From: Arthonia radiata
Taxonomy: Eukaryota > Ascomycota > Arthoniomycetes > Arthoniales > Arthoniaceae
Assembly: GCA_002989075.1 (NCBI GenBank)
Contig: PSQN01000012.1
Location: forward strand, 124,001 to 188,000
Direction: 5' to 3'
Length of the DNA: 64,000 bases
Shown here: positions 1,952 through 63,358 of the stretch, one piece after another
Numbering within the stretch: the first letter of the stretch is position 1
Layout: every line of letters begins with the position of its first letter
Program-made: the position numbers and the translations under genes
Notes under the pieces: generated by a model
Seen by the model: the letters and a program-made list of their open reading frames with translations, nothing else
The model's database searches: none
Told to the model about the DNA's origin: nothing

Positions 1952-4095
1952 ATGAACCCCGTACGCCAACCCAGGAGTGCTCTACGCGCCCTGAGCAAGA
2001 CACGCCAATTTTCTACCTCCTCCACACGCCCAGCCCTCTCCGCACATCGAGCCACCACAGCACAACAGACCAAAGAAACAGACGTAGCAAAACGAGAACA
2101 GTCCACAGCAGCAGCCACCGCACCGCAATCCCAACCACGACCTGCCCCTTCACCGGCTTTCAACCAGGAACGTGCACGATGGAACAATGTCCAACCTTTA
2201 CAACCGTACCGACCCCAAGAGATGGACCACTCCTTTGTCGGCATGAAAGGCGGCGAGATATTCCACGAGATGATGCTCCGCCAGAACGTGAAAAAGGTGT
2301 TCGGATACCCCGGTGGAGCAATCCTGCCCGTCTTCGACGCCATCTACAACTCGAAACATTTCGATTTCATCCTACCGCGGCATGAGCAAGGTGCTGGGCA
2401 CATGGCCGAGGGGTACGCACGCGCGTCTGGAAAGCCTGGCGTTGTATTGGTGACATCTGGTCCTGGCGCGACGAACGTCATAACGCCCATCCAAGACGCG
2501 CTCATGGACGGCACGCCTCTTGTTGTCTTTTGCGGGCAGGTCCCGACGATCGCCATTGGCTCAGACGCCTTCCAAGAAGCAGACATCGTTGGCATCTCGA
2601 GAGCATGTACGAAATGGAACGTCATGGTCAAGAACGTTGCAGAGCTACCACGACGCATCAACGAGGCTTTCGAGATCGCGACTTCCGGCCGGCCTGGGCC
2701 TGTCCTCGTTGATCTGCCCAAAGATGTAACAGGCGGTATCCTGCAGCGGCCCATCCCCATTTCCAGCACTCTCCCTGTACACCCCAGTGCCGCGACAATG
2801 GCCGCCAGAGAATTGTCTCGAAAACAGCTGGAAGGCGCCATTGCGCGCTCAGCGAATCTCATCAACATCGCCAAGAAGCCCGTCGTCTACGCCGGCCAAG
2901 GCGTCCTCTCCTCGCCAGCTGGCCCACAATTGCTGAAAGAACTGTCCGATAAAGCCAACATCCCCGTGACCACCACCCTCCAAGGGCTCGGCGGCTTTGA
3001 CGAGCTGGACCCGAAGGCGTTACACATGCTGGGCATGCACGGCTCCGCGTTCGCTAACATGGCGATCCAAGAAGCCGACCTCGTCATCGCTTTAGGCGCG
3101 CGCTTTGACGACCGCATCACCGGCAAAGTCACGGCCTTTGCTCCTCAGGCGCGTGCCGCCGCCGCAGAAGGCCGAGGTGGCATCATTCACTTCGAGATCA
3201 TGCCCAAAAATATCAACAAAGTCGTACAGGCGACCGAGGCTGTCGAAGGAGATGTTGTGACCAACCTCTCCCTCCTGCTACCCCACGTAAACACCGTCCC
3301 AGAACGCCCCGAATGGTTCGCTCAGATCGACGACTGGAAAGCCCGCTTCCCGTGGGCGTACGAGAAGGAGACAGCGAATGGCCTCATCAAGCCACAGACT
3401 GTCATGCACACCATCTCCGAACTGACCGCACACCAAAAAGAGAAGACCCTGGTCGCAACAGGCGTCGGCCAGCACCAGATGTGGGCAGCCCAGCACTTCC
3501 GCTGGCGGCATCCACGCACCATGATCACCTCCGGCGGCCTCGGCACAATGGGCTACGGCCTCCCAGCGTCTATCGGCGCCAAGGTCGCGCGCCCGGACTG
3601 CCTTGTCCTTGACATCGACGGCGACGCCTCCTTCTGCATGACGCAGACGGAACTTTCTACGGCTGCCGAGTTCAACATCGGGGTCAAGATCATCGTGCTG
3701 AACAACGAAGAGCAAGGCATGGTCACACAGTGGCAGACCTTGTTCTATGAAGATCGATTCGCACACACGCACCAGAAGAACCCCGACTTCGTGAAGCTCG
3801 CCGAGTCGATGGGCGTGCAAGCGGACCGCGTGTTCAAGCCGGAGGAGCTACAGCAGAAGCTGGAGTGGTTAATGTTTGCAAGTGGAGACGGTCCGGCGCT
3901 GTTGGAGGTGGTGACGGATCAGAAGGTGCCGGTGCTGCCAATGGTGCCAGGGGGGAGTGCATTACATGAATTCTTGGTCTATGATGAAGGTATGTCCTTT
4001 TTTTGTGTGAAGTGCAGGAAGAGATGTGAGCTAACGAGTGTGCAGCGACGGCGAAAAAACGGAGAGAGCAGACGAGGAAGAGGTCGGGACGGTGA
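1952..4095 (+). CDS. ILV2: Acetolactate synthase, catalytic subunit, mitochondrial
   Basis: Thiamine-diphosphate enzyme that condenses two pyruvates (or pyruvate and 2-oxobutyrate) in the first shared step of valine, leucine and isoleucine synthesis; acts in mitochondria with the ILV6 regulatory subunit. The chosen ATG gives an Arg/Ser/Thr-rich presequence (MNPVRQPRSALRALSKTRQF). The conserved N-terminal domain begins around residue 95. The catalytic glutamate lies in RHEQGAGHMAEGYARASG (about residue 144). The TPP/Mg motif is DIDGDASFCMTQTE (about 553) followed by NNEEQGM. Exon 1 is 1952-3989; a 56-nt intron, 3990-4045, has donor GTATGT, branch GCTAAC and acceptor GCAG. Exon 2 (4046-4095) encodes the usual basic tail, ending KRSGR. 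The product is 695 aa, normal for fungal ILV2. Without the intron the frame would run on to 4315 as non-homologous sequence. A second GTGAGT at 4092 could extend the tail; not favoured. Confidence 0.95.
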
Positions 4096-4514
4096 GTGCG
4101 TGCTGAAGGGGAAACAAGGTTTTGACGCGTGTATATATGATGATAGCGATGGCAAGAGCGGGAGTCCGGAGTGGAACGGGCATCCAAGTGAGGCAAAAGC
4201 GTCGCTGTCATCTGCTGATATAAATCATGGCTCTTCATGCCTTGGTCACACTTCAGTACTCATCTGGTCTCAATGCTCCGGATGCTATAAATGCTCCTGT
4301 CCATTGACTCCGTGAATTAGTCAGAGGAGAACTGCTACAGCTCTCTATCCAGTCATAATGTCACTGACTGAACGAGAGAAAGTCTGAGAACTCTGCACTC
4401 AGAGACGTATAAAGCAAATATTCTCATGCTTCGTTACTCATGAATGACGCACATTCGACCAAGTCTATACAATACTCGTTCGCTCAAACCGCGTCTGGAT
4501 CATGCCAACAGCAC
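4096..4514. other. Convergent intergenic region ILV2 / ferric reductase
   Basis: 3' flanks of two convergent genes. No gene or strong repeat is seen. Confidence 0.6.
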
Positions 4515-6733
4515 TCACCACCCAAACTTCTCCACAGAAACCTCCACATCCCGCCCCTCCCATACCCTTCCCGCACACCAATTCCTCACAGTCCTATTCA
4601 GTGCATCCGGCGCCGAGCACACGACACCCACATCCGCCACCGCATCACTCCCCGCACTTACGGCATCCTCGAGCAACCCCCTCACATCCGGCTTGCCGCC
4701 CAGCTCCGTCGGCAGCGGCGTCTGAAGCGTCACGCCCCACTTTTGAAGCTCGTCGAGATACTCCACTCGCAGCGTCTGCAGCAGCGCCATCGAGCGCACG
4801 ATAAGGATGAGCACGATATTCTGCTGCCTCGCTAACGATGTGGCACCCTCTACGTCACGCCCGCGCCGCCGCAGTGTGAGCTCGTGAATCAGTGGTATTG
4901 CAACTGCGACGCCCGTGCCTGCCGCAACAACGACAGCGGTGTGCTTGGTACTCATCATATCCACCGCGTGCTCAGAGCCGTATGGGCCGTCAAGACGGAC
5001 GGTGCCGGCTGTGTGCGTGGCTGCGTACTGGAAGATGTCACGGGTGAAGCCGTCGTGGGCGCGGACGAGGAGGTCGAGGTGGCGTGGCTCGTCTTTTGAG
5101 GACGTGCAGGGCGCGGGTGATGCGATGGTGAAGGGGTGCGCTTGCAGTGCGTGGGAGCCTCGGAGCGCGGGGATGGAGATGAAAGCGTGTTGCGTGGGAA
5201 TCCAGCCGCGCGTGAAGTTGTGGGGTTGGATCAGTGCGTTGGTGAAGGGAATGGATGCGCGGATGCGCAGCCAGCGCTGTGGGGTGTCTACGACGTCGAA
5301 GGTGACTCTGTAGGTGCGGGACTTGAGGGTGATGCGGAAGAGGAGGCGGTCGACGAGGAAGATGGCAAGTGCGACGCCGACGTAGGTTCGAGCTCTAGGG
5401 TGGTGAAAGTATACGAGTCCGAGCGCTGCAGATTGGAGAACAATGTGGGATGCCAAGAAAAACTCATAAAAGCGTTGGCGGACGCAGCTGAGACTGGTGA
5501 GGTAGAGCAGCTCATAGCAGATAATGGCGATGAGACCGAGAAGGATGATCTTGCGGCTGAGGAAGTATGCCAAAGTCCAGCCGGCTGGACGGAGAAGGGT
5601 GTACCATACGGTGGTCATGCCGGCAGTGTGGATGAGCGCAAGAAGACAGAGCCATTCACCAAGTCGCCTGCGCAGATTTGTTAGCTTGTTTCCATACGCA
5701 GCAGCTACGTCGGTGACCGGGGTCGGCCACCAAGACCGGCTAAAATCAGGAGCAAAACTCACCGGTGGAAGATATTCAAAGACTCATACGATCGTCCAGT
5801 AAGCAGTTGCAAAGGTTGGTTCTTCGCTGACAGAATATAAAGGTACGGTAGGTTTGCGACGAAGAGCACAGACGCTCGGTCTGCTATAACAAATATTGAC
5901 GAGAGTTCGAGGGGACATCTGAAAAACAGGAAGAATAGGTTGATGCCGAGAAGAAACAAGACGAAGAGAGTCGTCCCGTTTTCTGGCAATTGTTTGTTGA
6001 AGACTGGAAGGGGAGAAGGTTGATACATCGTCATTGTTCGGAGACTCAGCAAGACTGAATGTTGCGACCGTGTGGAATCTTTCTGAGGTCGATCGAGAAG
6101 CGGGCTTCGCTCATTTGCAGGAGGCTTGCCATTGCTTGAGGAGGTCGTAGAGGCCGTGAGGGTGCTACTGCTTGAAGATTCCACTTCGTCCGAAGACGGT
6201 TTGATCAGAGTGCGCTCATTCTCTTCCAGATCATCATGTTGCAAGGCAGCTGAGCGAAAGGCCTTCTGTGTTTTTGCGCCTGATCTCCTCTTTTGCGAGC
6301 GGACAAGCTTGGAAGCCCAATGCTTCAAGGTGAGGATACAGATCAGGGTGACAATAATAGCATGATAATGTAAAATTAGCACTTGCGTATACCGCACCCC
6401 TATGACAGTTTTGTTGAAACTATTATGACCGTGATTCGGCTCGCCGCCGGTTGAGGCCGTGATGAATGATTGATTGTTGTCTGGATTTATCGCGTTCTGA
6501 AGCCATCTTCCGATAGTATCCCTAGACATAGATGGGCGAAAGGTGTCTAAGCTTCAGAGCTGCTCACGACCGAAGACAGCGTACCTGAAGTGCAAGTTGG
6601 TCCCAAGGCAGACCGTTTCATCACTGCCACCGTGATAAAGATGTGTGATGGACTGCTGGAATCGGAGTCTACGCGAGTCATGGAAGACTAGCGCGGAGGG
6701 CGTGTGGAGAGCACGTGATGCCATCAAATTCAT
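4515..6733 (-). CDS. Ferric-reductase-like transmembrane flavocytochrome (FRE/NOX superfamily)
   Basis: Membrane reductase that moves electrons from NADPH through FAD and two haems, typically to reduce extracellular ferric or cupric ions. Model: exons 6733-6585, 6521-5763 and 5667-4515, introns of 63 and 95 nt. Both junctions keep frame: ..NLHFR/DTIGRW.. and ..NIFHR/RLGEW.. . The second removes an otherwise interrupted haem segment, and its intron has GCTAAC before the acceptor. About 686 aa. Hydrophobic segments: one in the N-terminal third, then a Ser-rich loop, then about six helices. Haem-ligand histidines fit NIFHRRLGEW, LALIHTAGM and the FFLASH / VYFHH helices. HPFTIASP is the FAD-binding motif; GPYGS and VVVAAGTGVAVAIPLI form the nucleotide-binding part; the C-terminus VCSAPDALNRTVRNW is typical. 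No signal peptide is seen; an in-frame ATG at 6787 would add 18 residues. Substrate metal is not predictable. Confidence 0.88.
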
Positions 6734-49446: not shown

Positions 49447-51823
49447 ATGCGTTTTACAACAATAGTATTGACGCTCGCAGCAGTTGTGTTGCCAGCTCTC
49501 TCTCAGATTGTGCCTACGCAGCAACCGAACTACACGTGGTAAGGACAGGCTGGCGTCGTCTCATCCGATCCATGCGTTGACGTTTCACTCTAGCTCTGCT
49601 ACTCAACCGTGCGCACTGGGCTGTTGTGGAGGCTCGGGATACTGTGGCTTCGGGCCCACCTTTTGCGGTCAAGGGAATTGCACTTCAGGATGCACCAGGA
49701 AATCGGAATGTGATCCAGGATGGGGTAGCCAGTGGAGCAACGCAACAGACTGCCCGTTGAACGTTTGCTGTAGCCAGTACGGTTTCTGCGGGACGACTGC
49801 TGGTAAGCGTGGTCGAAGGAGAGGCATCTGGCAAACAGACTGGCTCACGCTCCGTAGAGTTCTGTGGCGATGTTGTTGTCGATGAGCCTTCATGCTCGAC
49901 TACAGGCAACAGCGCGAGACAACGCGTGATAGGGTACTATGAAGCCTGGTCCCAGCAGCGAAGCTGTGATCAAAGTATGTCCGACTTTCGGATCACTGCT
50001 TTCAATCAATATTGACCTCGAGCAGTGTTCCCACGACAGATGCCTCAAGGTCTTTTTACCCATTTGAACCTAGCTTTTGCGTTTATAAATCCAACAAGCT
50101 ACTTCATCGAGCCTATGGACCCTCGAGATGTTCCGTTATATTCGGAATTCACGGGCCTCAAGAAGGACAACCCAGACCTTGAGACGTGGATCTCCATCGG
50201 TGGCTGGAGCTTCAACGATCCAAGCCCGTACAACCATACCTTCTCCAGCCTTGCAAACTCGACTGATGCCCAAGATGCATTTGCTGAGAGCTTGATCAAT
50301 TTCATGGACAAGTACGACTTTGATGGCGTGGATATCGATTGGGAGTATCCAGTAGCTGAAGAGAGAGATGGCGAGGTAAGCTTAACGATGGAAGGCTCGA
50401 TCTCTCTCCAACTAATCATCTGTCAGACTTGGGACTTCGAAGACTACGTCAGCTGGCTGCAACATCTACGCGAGCAACTTGGCGATGACTTCGGCCTCAG
50501 CATTACCATTCCATCTTCTTACTGGTATGTCTGGTTTCGCACGTTCCAGCTCTGATCTCTTCACCTCACAGCCTGCTAACATACCGCAGGTACATGCGTC
50601 ACTTCGACATTCACCGCTTGATCGATCACGTCGACTGGTTCAATATGATGACCTACGACTTGCACGGCACGTGGGGTAAGTTCTGTTGTCCACAAATCTT
50701 GTTCTGAGGGCGCTTTGTGGTCCAGAAGACAATGTACTGACATTTGGATATCAAAGACGCGCCAAATCCCTACGTCGGACCCTACGTCAACTCTCACACC
50801 AATCTCACAGAGATCAATCAGGCCCTCGACCTACTTTGGCGCAACGACATCCCTCCAGAGAAAGTAGTCATGGGTCTCGGCTTCTACGGGCGGAGCTTCA
50901 CCCTTGATAATCCCGACTGCGATCATGAAGGCTGCATCTTCAGCGCTGGCGGCGATGCCGGCTCCTGCACCGGTAATGTGGGTACATTGAGCTTTGCTGA
51001 GATTGAGAGAGTTATTGCGAACGATGACGCCGTGGTGACGCTAAACGAACCGGCCGCGGTCGAGGAGGTTGTGTGGCGCGAAAACCAATGGGTTAGCTAT
51101 GATGATACAGAGACGTTTCGAAGGAAGTACGAGTACGCGAATGGGAAGTGCCTTGGTGGCCTGATGGTGTGGGCTGCTTCACTGGATGATCGGAATGGGA
51201 CTGCCCAAAGGCAACTATGTGACGTGATCGGCTGCAGCGTGCGGGTACCAGAGGATGCGGATGCTCCAATTAGCTGTGGGACAACAGGTACTTGCAGAGA
51301 GTACCACACTGTTATCGAGGGTGAGTTTTGTACCAGCCAAACTTACCTTGAAGTCGCGGCAGTTGCTAATTACACAGGCGACACCTGTTACTCTCTCTAC
51401 AGCGGAGCACACACAAGCCTCACCTACTTGATTACGCTGAACCCCCAGCTACACGCAGATTGCTCCAATCTCGAGGTTGGCTACCAATATTGCGTGGCTG
51501 GTACACCAGGAAGCAACAACACTGCCTCTTGCACCAGTTCATCGAGCTCTGCGCCACCAGCAAGTGTCGGTAGCAGCAATTCGAACGCGGCATCCTCAAC
51601 CAGCATTGGCGCTTCAACGACGAGCGGCAGCATAACAGCCACTTCCAGTAGTACGGTACCTGCTGAGAATGGCACAGCGGGAGCGGGGAATGATACAGCA
51701 AGCAACACCCGAGTATTCAGCTCCAGCGGTAGCCCAACCGTGATTTTGACTACGTCGCCGGGCACTGCGAGCGAAGTCTGCTTCGTGACGACCTCGGTGG
51801 TGACGATCGACCACGAGTTATAG
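49447..51823 (+). CDS. Secreted GH18 chitinase with hevein-type and LysM-like chitin-binding domains
   Basis: Hydrolyses chitin, likely in wall remodelling or against other fungi. Seven exons: 49447-49538, 49594-49802, 49858-49974, 50026-50375, 50427-50524, 50590-50675 and 50757-51823. All six introns are 50-81 nt and in phase, giving 672 aa. Signal peptide MRFTTIVLTLAAVVLPALS. Cys-rich hevein-type (ChtBD1) region about 30-115 with CCGGSGYCGFG and CCSQYGFCGTTAEFCG. The GH18 barrel starts at RVIGYYEAWS; the catalytic motif DGVDIDWEYP puts the acid at about E246; WISIGGWSF, MMTYDLHGTW and GLMVWAAS are further barrel strands. A LysM-like domain (YHTVIEGEFC to NLEVGYQYCV) follows the barrel, then a Ser/Thr-rich tail. 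The layout recalls subgroup C chitinases, although LysM after the catalytic domain is less usual. Rates on chitin forms cannot be inferred. Confidence 0.93.
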
Positions 51824-61397: not shown

Positions 61398-61684
61398 CGG
61401 GGGGTGTCAGAAAATGTACATCTAGCGGACTGTAAAGAATAGTTGCGGACGATTGAAGGAGAACAGGTAGAACAGTCCTATACAGTCGCTGTTGCCTCGA
61501 CAAATCCGTAATTTCAGATAGTATTCACGTCAAACCTGCGTGTCCAACGTTCCTCCTCCAAGATGGCGTAGAGTCTGCCAAGATCCAAGAGTTCGGCACC
61601 GGCGTGTTAGCTAGAGCCGAACAAATCAAAAATAATATAATATCTTGATAGCGAACAGTGTCCTTGATTGACTATTGGGCACCG

Positions 61685-61695
61685 TGGCCTAATGG
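61685..61695 (+). promoter_or_regulatory. Pol III A box of the tRNA gene
   Basis: TGGCCTAATGG fits the A-box consensus (T-R-G-Y-N-N-A..G). Confidence 0.8.
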
Positions 61696-61709
61696 TAAGG
61701 CGTTGCTTT

Positions 61710-61765
61710 GTGAGTACCAATACACCACCAGACCCGCTCTAGGGTAATATCTAACCTGTACACAG
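61710..61765 (+). other. Putative spliceosomal-type intron 1 in the tRNA gene
   Basis: 56 nt: donor GTGAGT, CTAAC branch-like site at 61751-61755, acceptor CACAG. Lies between tRNA positions 33 and 34. Its length and signals are like those of introns in neighbouring protein genes. Confidence 0.65.
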
Positions 61766-61779
61766 CCGGTGGCAAAGAT

Positions 61780-61828
61780 GTCAGTATAGTCATCCTTGCG
61801 ACGAATAATTCACTGACGCCAAAATAAG
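61780..61828 (+). other. Putative spliceosomal-type intron 2 in the tRNA gene
   Basis: 49 nt: donor GTCAGT, CTGAC branch-like site at 61813-61817, acceptor AAG. Interrupts the variable loop; removal yields AGATT followed by the T stem. Confidence 0.65.
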
Positions 61829-61832
61829 TGTG

Positions 61833-61843
61833 GGTTCGAGTCC
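61833..61843 (+). promoter_or_regulatory. Pol III B box of the tRNA gene
   Basis: GGTTCGAGTCC matches the B-box consensus exactly. The introns stretch A-to-B spacing to about 148 bp. Confidence 0.85.
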
Positions 61844-61863
61844 CATCGGTGTCGCAGCTATGC

Positions 61864-61868
61864 TTTTT
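61864..61868 (+). terminator. Pol III terminator
   Basis: TTTTT ten bases after the tRNA discriminator, followed by a second T-run. Confidence 0.75.
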
Positions 61869-62343: not shown

Positions 62344-63358
62344 ATGGCTGGAGCCGGCCACCAATTCCCACCTGTTGAGGTCTCGTGGAACAAGCGAGAT
62401 CTCCTGCTCTTCGCCAGCAGCATCGGGTGCACAGTCGACGAGCTTCACTTCCTCTACGTATGTCAGATCCCCCTCCCTGATTCAATGCTGTTCACTTCAG
62501 CAAATAACGACTACTGTACTTACTAGCATCCTACTAAATTGTATACAGGAACTCCACCCCTCCTTTCAAGCCTTCCCCACCTATCCCATCCTCCTCCCCT
62601 TCAAGCACACCGATCAAGATGTCGTCGACTTCTACGCGCGCCAATCTTCCTCCGGCTCTTCCATCCCGGGTGTACCAAAGCTAGACTCTCGCCGCGTTGT
62701 CGACGGCCAGCGCAAGATCACACTATTCAAGCCCTTGCCAGTCACGTCCGCTGGTAGAAAGTTTGAGGTCAGGAATAAAGTCCTCGGCGTGTACGACAAG
62801 GGCAAGGCGACAGTCATGGAGACTGAGCAGTCAATTGTCGAAGCGAGCAGCGGGGAGGTATACAGCAAAGTCGTTGGCTCGGCGTTCTTCGTAGGCCAAG
62901 GCGGGTGGGGTGGTCCGAAGGGAGAGAAGGGCGCAGACTACTCGCCGCCGAAAGACAAGAAGCCGGATGCAGTTGCTGAGGTGCAAACAACGGCCGAGAC
63001 AGCACACCTTTACAGGTTAAATGGCGACTACAACCCACTGCACGCAACCCCAGAGCCAGGTCAGAAGATGGGCTTCGGTGGTGCGATCATGCATGGACTG
63101 TACAGTTGGAATACCAGCGCGCATGCGGTGCTAAAAGCGTTTGGCGGCAGCGATGCGCAGAATCTAAAGAGCTATGAGGCGAGGTTTGCGAGCCCAGTAA
63201 AGCCCGGGGAGAAGCTGGTAACAGAGATGTGGCGAACGGGAAAGAGCGAGGACGGGGCAGAAGAGGTGGTTTTTATTGCAAAGACGGGTGCCGGCAAGGT
63301 CGCGTTGAGCAATGGGCGAGCGCTGGTGAAGGTGACCGAAGTGAAGAGCAAGCTGTGA
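62344..63358 (+). CDS. MaoC-type (R)-specific enoyl-CoA hydratase, peroxisomal
   Basis: Double hot-dog hydratase acting on 2-enoyl-CoA, most likely in peroxisomal beta-oxidation. Exons 62344-62457 and 62549-63358, 91-nt intron (GTATGT..ATACAG); 307 aa. The join reads ..DELHFLY/ELHPSFQAFPTYP.., as in fungal homologues. The hydratase-2 motif YRLNGDYNPLHATPE is at about residues 193-207 with Asp and His in the expected catalytic positions, followed by GFGGAIMHGLYSW. The last three residues are SKL, a perfect PTS1 peroxisomal import signal. No acyl-CoA dehydrogenase or SDR domain is attached, so this is the hydratase alone. Confidence 0.9.

Follow-up and report, generated by a model that had tools for sequence, protein, structure and literature searches.

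Predicted spliceosomal introns in a tRNA-Arg(CCG) gene and further tRNA genes of the fungus Arthonia radiata

Introduction

Introns of messenger RNA (mRNA) type in short structured RNA genes have precedents in fungi, and these are the closest described systems to the element examined here: a transfer RNA (tRNA) gene with two GT..AG inserts, tRNA-Arg(CCG), in a 64,000-nucleotide (nt) stretch of the Arthonia radiata genome (GenBank assembly GCA_002989075.1, contig PSQN01000012.1, positions 124,001 to 188,000), which was analysed as a whole and is called the window below. Canzler et al. (2016) are reportedly the source for mRNA-type introns in fungal U6 and U3 genes, Bhattacharya et al. (2000) are said to have treated the spliceosomal introns of lichen ribosomal DNA (rDNA), and Soma et al. 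(2013) reportedly dealt with the disrupted tRNA genes of Cyanidioschyzon merolae.

The accessible part of PMC5832005 describes mRNA-type introns in the genes of fungal U6 small nuclear RNA (snRNA) and U3 small nucleolar RNA. Ectopic spliceosomal introns, one of them described as 57 nt long, occur in the rDNA of lichen-forming ascomycetes, according to the available portions of two further sources (PMC8527467, PMC6652019), and in the red alga C. merolae 34 of the 43 nuclear tRNA genes are given as disrupted in the excerpts available of PMC3978253 and PMC9602550. In the accessible parts of reviews of tRNA introns, a spliceosomal class of tRNA intron was not met. Nor was any description of spliceosomal introns in tRNA genes found in the open-access literature, preprints and most subscription papers being outside the scope of that search.

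We read the locus in the window as a working tRNA-Arg(CCG) gene that is probably interrupted by two small U2-type (GT..AG) spliceosomal introns and belongs to a genome-wide set, and give this reading a probability of roughly 0.87. The inserts, their boundaries and their splice signals are present in the sequence itself; they recur in 15 tRNA genes, and similar signals are found in mRNA and U6 introns of the same genome.

Layout of the interrupted tRNA-Arg(CCG) gene

The gene lies on the forward strand and is arranged as follows (window coordinates).

61635..61641, + strand: TATA-like element ATATAAT, 42-43 nt upstream of the tRNA-Arg(CCG) gene
61678..61854, + strand: tRNA-Arg(CCG) gene, 177 nt; joined product 72 nt, discriminator G (cmscan with RF00005, ARAGORN on the joined sequence, arms of the paralog at locus L003)
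61678..61709, + strand: exon 1, positions 1-33 (acceptor 5' strand, D arm, anticodon stem 5' strand, T32 and T33)
61710..61765, + strand: GT..AG insert 1, 56 nt, between positions 33 and 34 (GTGAGT, CTAAC 11 nt from the 3' end, ACAG)
61766..61779, + strand: exon 2 (anticodon CCG, remainder of the anticodon arm, variable-loop nucleotides 1-4)
61780..61828, + strand: GT..AG insert 2, 49 nt, in the variable loop (GTCAGT, CTGAC 12 nt from the 3' end, TAAG), boundary set by the paralog at L003
61829..61854, + strand: exon 3 (final variable-loop nucleotide, T arm with an intact B box, acceptor 3' strand, discriminator)
61864..61868, + strand: T5 run, then T4, which fits the expected terminator of RNA polymerase III (Pol III) for this gene

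Even unjoined, the full length of 61678-61854 is called as a tRNA by cmscan (RF00005, 40.9 bits, expectation value (E) 6.9e-6), whose alignment puts an insertion into each of the anticodon and variable loops. To ARAGORN the unspliced gene is a tRNA-His(GTG) whose intron measures 103 nt; given the joined 72-mer, the program reports tRNA-Arg(CCG). The sequence-only reading had delimited the two segments as 61710-61765 and 61780-61828 and had proposed that a full tRNA appears once both are deleted. Both segments stand exactly as placed, and joining across them yields a 72-nt tRNA with anticodon CCG, called as Arg(CCG) by ARAGORN, with stems, conserved bases and anticodon intact, a result with which the energy fold of the 72-mer disagrees. 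The presence in the window of a tRNA gene with two GT..AG inserts is confirmed as a real feature.

The two junctions were examined by an excision test, in which every removal of 30-90 nt was scored for the resulting cloverleaf and the ends of the removed segment were ignored. For insert 1, six of 4086 placements share the score of the GT..AG one; they form a sliding series that differs in the anticodon loop alone (CCG, GCG, then GTG or TGA-type loops), and the sole GT..AG placement among the six yields the anticodon CCG. Structure is a weak guide to insert 2, for which 121 of 3659 placements do equally well or better, two of these being GT..AG. Its join is fixed independently of the splice signals, since the paralogous tRNA-Arg(TCG) gene at L003, which has a 15-nt intron at position 37/38 and no GT..AG insert, matches the joined sequence in the variable loop and T arm (AGATTGTGGGTTCGAGTCCCAT is identical in both) as well as in the D arm.

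Interrupted tRNA genes across the genome

The genome (33.5 Mb in 16 contigs) was sampled for tRNA genes with the Rfam tRNA family, the B box GGTTCRANYCC and D-arm motifs. The B box occurs at 114 sites, 100 of which were fetched, 70 being read and 30 screened by a script that demanded a T stem of 5/5, so that genes whose T stem is weaker or interrupted would go unnoticed. Three D-arm searches contributed 14 of 60, 7 of 7 and 8 of 13 matches that were read (29 of 80 in total). Three other B-box motifs gave 258, 188 and 253 sites, and their reversed controls 224, 276 and 519; 60 loci from the first two of these searches were screened by script, and single sites were read alongside other stretches. 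The motif GGTTCGANNCC (177 sites) revealed nothing new among the 100 matches listed, which reach C10. For six of eight insert-bearing genes searched, no tRNA match came within E 1, and for the tRNA-His gene none came within E 0.1. Rfam matches to TCL6_1 and Plastid-ycf2 scored below the gathering thresholds and were taken as chance.

This sampling produced 29 readable tRNA genes, a count that leaves out five tRNA-like places (L124, L145, L146, L149 and L150). Fifteen of the 29 carry GT..AG inserts, 23 in all: three in Asn-GTT; two each in Arg-CCG, Thr-TGT, Thr-CGT, Ala-CGC, Tyr-GTA and the first of two Leu-CAA genes; and one each in Gln-CTG, Thr-AGT, Ala-TGC, Lys-TTT, Leu-TAA, Leu-CAG, the second Leu-CAA gene and His-GTG. 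No such insert was recognised in the other 14 (Cys, three Met, Arg-TCG, Arg-CCT, Trp, Gln-TTG, Pro-TGG, Phe, Lys-CTT, Asp, Leu-AAG and Ala-AGC). Genes for Val, Ile, Gly, Ser and Glu tRNAs were not recognised among the sites read and are possibly interrupted within the search boxes. The insert sites, in tRNA numbering, are distributed over the whole molecule.

Acceptor stem: 4|5 in Leu-CAG
D region: 9|10 and D loop in Tyr; 10|11 in Leu-TAA; D loop in Thr-AGT, Thr-CGT and His
Positions 23-26: 23|24 in Thr-TGT; 24|25 in Asn; 25|26 in Thr-CGT
Anticodon region: 30|31 in Lys; 31|32 in Thr-TGT and Asn; 33|34 in Arg
Variable loop: Arg, Ala-CGC and Asn; variable/T border in Ala-TGC and Leu-CAA1
T region: T stem in Gln and Ala-CGC; T loop, 57|58, in both Leu-CAA genes

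None of the 23 inserts sits at 37/38, a position at which 13 of the 15 insert-bearing genes have an ordinary intron of 6-32 nt in addition. The two tRNA-Leu(CAA) genes are identical at 77 of 79 positions and differ by one intron, and tRNA-Thr(TGT) and tRNA-Thr(CGT), identical at 63 of 72, have their introns at different sites; to judge from these pairs, intron gain or loss seems to have been recent.

Splice signals and putative transcription signals

The inserts are 49-61 nt long (n = 23). GT..AG ends are present in all 23 by assignment, the boundaries having been set by the paralog for insert 2 of the window gene and by cloverleaf plus GT..AG for the others. The 5' ends read GTATGT in five, GTGAGT in three and GTAAGT in three, with other GT hexamers in the rest, and 18 of the 23 fit GTNNGT; the 3' ends are CAG (8), TAG (8), AAG (6) and GAG (1). 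A branch-site-like YTNAY lies 9-15 nt before the 3' end in every insert (mean of 4.0 and maximum of 11 in 2000 shuffles), and the stricter CTRAY lies in the same interval in 17 (mean of 0.9, maximum of 6).

We also considered whether the inserts are transposed copies of the kind called introner-like elements, and rejected this for the sequence at hand, the introns not being alike: no common stretch longer than 11 nt was found among the 23 at E 0.01. One 15-nt match (E 0.05) linked the introns to the other genome sequence compared, which was a small part of the genome.

Upstream of the insert-bearing genes, TATA-like hexamers occur at 30-46 nt in 9 of 15, and a run of at least four T follows 12 of 15 within the 9-93 nt read downstream, both counts being without a chance control. 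The tRNA-His(GTG) gene is followed by a T6 run about 51 nt downstream.

Cloverleaf tests on the joined sequences

Our own cloverleaf scoring recovered the stated anticodon for all 15 joined genes, which scored 32-36.5 as compared to 33.5-37.5 for 11 intact genes scored without excision. ARAGORN called a tRNA in each of the 15 joined sequences and gave the stated isotype in 11. The four mismatches, all in genes with small 37/38 introns, were Thr-AGT and Leu-TAA (read with four-base anticodons), Asn-GTT (read as Ala) and Leu-CAG (read as selenocysteine). Before joining, seven of the 15 sequences were called, all seven with an identity other than the stated one.

In the excision test, at most eight of the 3842-6038 placements equal or beat the assigned one for 12 of the 23 inserts, and exactly one of these placements is GT..AG in each case; the chance of finding a GT..AG placement there is 0.005-0.036 per insert. 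Multiplied over all 23 inserts, the chances come to about 1e-29 if independent, a value that serves merely as a guide, because the assignments were made by eye and are mutually conditional. A mock-site scan, which put five other dinucleotide pairs in place of GT..AG, could score nine of the 15 genes, the T or acceptor stem of the other six having failed the entry filter. Mock sites led to clearly poorer tRNAs in seven of the nine (L014, L109, L112, L116, L132, L137 and L142).

Introns in mRNA and U6 genes of the same genome

Three introns in two protein-coding genes of the window were checked by reading frame; joining gives a single open reading frame for each.

62458..62548, + strand: mRNA intron of the neighbouring MaoC/hydratase gene, GTATGT..CTAAAT..ACAG, 91 nt
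50525..50589, + strand: mRNA intron of a GH18 gene, GTATGT..GCTAAC..GCAG, 65 nt
50676..50756, + strand: mRNA intron of the same GH18 gene, GTAAGT..ACTGAC..CAAAG, 81 nt

The signals of the tRNA inserts are similar to those of these mRNA introns, in a small sample in which the mRNA introns are longer (65-91 nt). Three U6 snRNA genes score above the family cut-off (L170, L171 and L172, at C12:477511, C14:1994194 and C2:1988232). Each contains one GT..CTTACTGAC..AG intron of 51-56 nt at an identical site, with GTATGT or GTGCGT at its 5' end, and T runs follow the genes. The sequence-only reading had proposed a Pol III transcript that is processed by the spliceosome, had likened the case to the mRNA-type introns of fungal U6 genes and had pointed to other tRNAs with GT..AG insertions as a place to look. 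Introns of spliceosome type are supported well beyond the window locus by the same genome, where the three U6 genes hold introns of equal build and 15 of 29 readable tRNA genes carry GT..AG inserts with signals like those of mRNA introns.

Other tRNA-like loci

Several loci fall outside the set described above. L124, L146, L149 and L150 are unassigned tRNA-like sequences in which acceptor, D and T arms are present; their anticodon arms hold about 100 nt, and the stem is not followed by T33. At L008 (C7:416249-416544), only 3 nt separate tRNA-Pro(TGG) from tRNA-Phe(GAA), and ARAGORN places an insert of more than 70 nt in the anticodon loop of each, for which the mock-site scan favours no GT..AG placement. 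L006 (C3:815151-815302) is a tandem of tRNA-Trp and tRNA-Met(CAT) separated by 7 nt, neither with introns. The D-arm-like word TAGCTCAGTGGTAACGA is found in identical form at C1:3676588, C2:2939329 and C3:1281113 and perhaps marks a tRNA-derived repeat. L159, L161 and L162 are seemingly copies of one repeat, two of them AT-rich by eye, as after repeat-induced point mutation.

Weighing the explanations

If the main interpretation is correct, the precursor would probably be transcribed by Pol III from the upstream TATA element and the internal boxes, and TATA elements may compensate for A and B boxes that are split by introns. Each spliceosomal intron would then be removed by the mRNA spliceosome, guided by the 5' splice site, the terminal AG and a branch site 9-15 nt before the 3' end, whereas the ordinary 37/38 intron, where present (13 genes), would be taken out by the tRNA splicing endonuclease and ligase. 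The joined exons would finally fold as a normal tRNA. From the sequence features we infer Pol III transcription, spliceosomal removal, the order of these steps and a functional product.

Several observations weigh against this interpretation. The first parsing of the inserts was visual and looked for GT..AG ends, and in genes with more than one insert the outcome of the excision test for each depends on how the others were assigned. Structure alone leaves 11 of the 23 inserts undecided, because 13-121 placements do equally well or better, and for eight of the 23 some alternative excision is ahead by 0.5 or 1. Mock sites do nearly or fully as well in Lys-TTT (32.5 vs. 32.0) and His-GTG (a tie). 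A single GT..AG excision brings L124, L149 and the two L008 genes, Phe and Pro, to 30.5-32.5, a score that mock sites equal or exceed. In the minimum-energy fold of the joined 72-mer from the window, the acceptor and T stems form and the D and anticodon arms do not, with a z of -1.9 and 10 of 200 shuffles folding at least equally well. At L145 (C1:429730-429970), a second Cys-like tRNA combines a 37/38 intron with an insert in the T arm, GTTAGT..CTAAC, that departs from GT..AG at its 3' end; this insert was excluded from the 23, and the locus may be a decaying gene or represent another splice form. For the spliceosome, a Pol III transcript with internal exons of 6-9 nt would be a difficult substrate. 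T4 runs lie inside three introns, with a T5 in one of them (Leu-CAA2), and could stop Pol III; several introns interrupt an A box or a B box; and Thr-AGT and Thr-CGT are without a T4 run in the 64-66 nt read downstream.

The last two points, together with the absence of a TATA-like hexamer from the upstream stretch read in six of the 15 genes, would suit precursors made by RNA polymerase II (Pol II), capped and spliced as ordinary RNA. This variant shares the spliceosomal core of the interpretation above, and we consider it unlikely: like Pol III genes, most are preceded by a TATA-like site and closely followed by T runs, and the U6 genes of this genome combine T runs with the same kind of intron. 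A different machinery is invoked if the ectopic introns are cut by the tRNA splicing endonuclease at motifs like the bulge-helix-bulge (BHB), with GT..AG a coincidence. C. merolae does have several ectopic introns per tRNA gene, in the D, anticodon and T arms, according to the parts available of PMC3978253 and PMC9602550, and the endonuclease is presumably present here, since ordinary 37/38 introns are common in this genome. Introns of the endonuclease, however, need no GT, AG or branch site, and all 23 assigned inserts have GT, AG and a YTNAY at 9-15 nt, at lengths typical of small fungal introns. None of the 23 has the central helix of a strict archaeal BHB, a result of little force against the endonuclease, because 16 of 17 ordinary 37/38 introns fail the same test (1/17 as control). 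On balance we judge removal by the endonuclease very improbable.

It is about equally improbable that the interrupted genes are dead copies and that intact tRNA genes elsewhere do the work. Dead genes would tolerate insertions, L145 may be one, and the genome was sampled by motif, with 100 of 114 B-box sites covered. Yet stems, conserved bases and anticodons are intact once the exons are joined, with cloverleaf scores close to those of intact genes, TATA-like and T-run signals are retained in most genes, and splice and branch signals common to all 23 inserts would be unexpected of dead genes. In those 100 sites, 30 of them seen by script only, no intact copy was recognised of ten interrupted tRNAs (Arg-CCG, Tyr, Asn, His, Lys-TTT, Ala-TGC, Ala-CGC and the three Thr). 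An intact tRNA-Arg(CCG) elsewhere, which the sequence-only reading had named as telling against it, did not turn up among the sites read. That reading had also offered an alternative for the window gene, a tRNA-His(GTG) with a canonical 37/38 intron, which would leave one odd insert in the variable loop. The ARAGORN call on the unspliced sequence agrees with it, as do three of the six structurally equal placements of insert 1, which give GTG. It is disfavoured to the point of being hardly credible: the D arm and the variable and T arms are those of tRNA-Arg(TCG), the discriminator is G, the GTG placements are without GT..AG ends, and a separate tRNA-His(GTG) candidate is present at L015.

Discussion

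By the sequence features tested, the inserts are, as introns, of the known U2-type GT..AG kind; it is the class of host gene that would be new. We consider it likely, with slightly less assurance than for the window gene, that nuclear tRNA introns include a further, spliceosomal class. Such introns would have invaded about half of the tRNA genes that could be read, at many sites including the acceptor stem; several essential and apparently single-copy tRNAs would depend on the spliceosome, and 13 of the 15 genes would require the endonuclease and ligase as well.

If this is true, tRNA splicing and mRNA splicing, which are treated as separate, both act on single precursors, and essential tRNAs depend on the spliceosome, which may link translation capacity to splicing capacity. 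The genes would allow a clean test of whether the spliceosome can handle internal exons of 6-9 nt in Pol III transcripts, and they would make intron gain testable, as tRNA exons are short, structured and readily compared between paralogs. The findings also bear on why tRNA finders miss genes in some fungi.

Compared with known systems, the set resembles the introns of fungal U6 and U3 genes, being small spliceosomal introns in short structured RNA genes, and differs in that the hosts are tRNAs, that many genes are involved and that a gene may have up to three introns. With the introns of lichen rDNA it shares the insertion of spliceosomal introns into a fungal transcript that is neither mRNA nor made by Pol II, Pol III being predicted here; the host there is ribosomal RNA, made by Pol I, and here it is tRNA. 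In this assembly, no match with up to three mismatches was found to one conserved motif from the 3' part of 18S, so the rDNA may be absent or interrupted there. As in C. merolae, there are several introns per tRNA, in the D, anticodon and T arms, but BHB motifs form in the alga, whereas GT..AG ends and a branch-site motif are found in A. radiata. The canonical eukaryotic 37/38 intron, as described in the accessible part of PMC4090602, is present alongside the inserts in 13 of the 15 genes, and the inserts differ from it in position, splice signals and presumed machinery.
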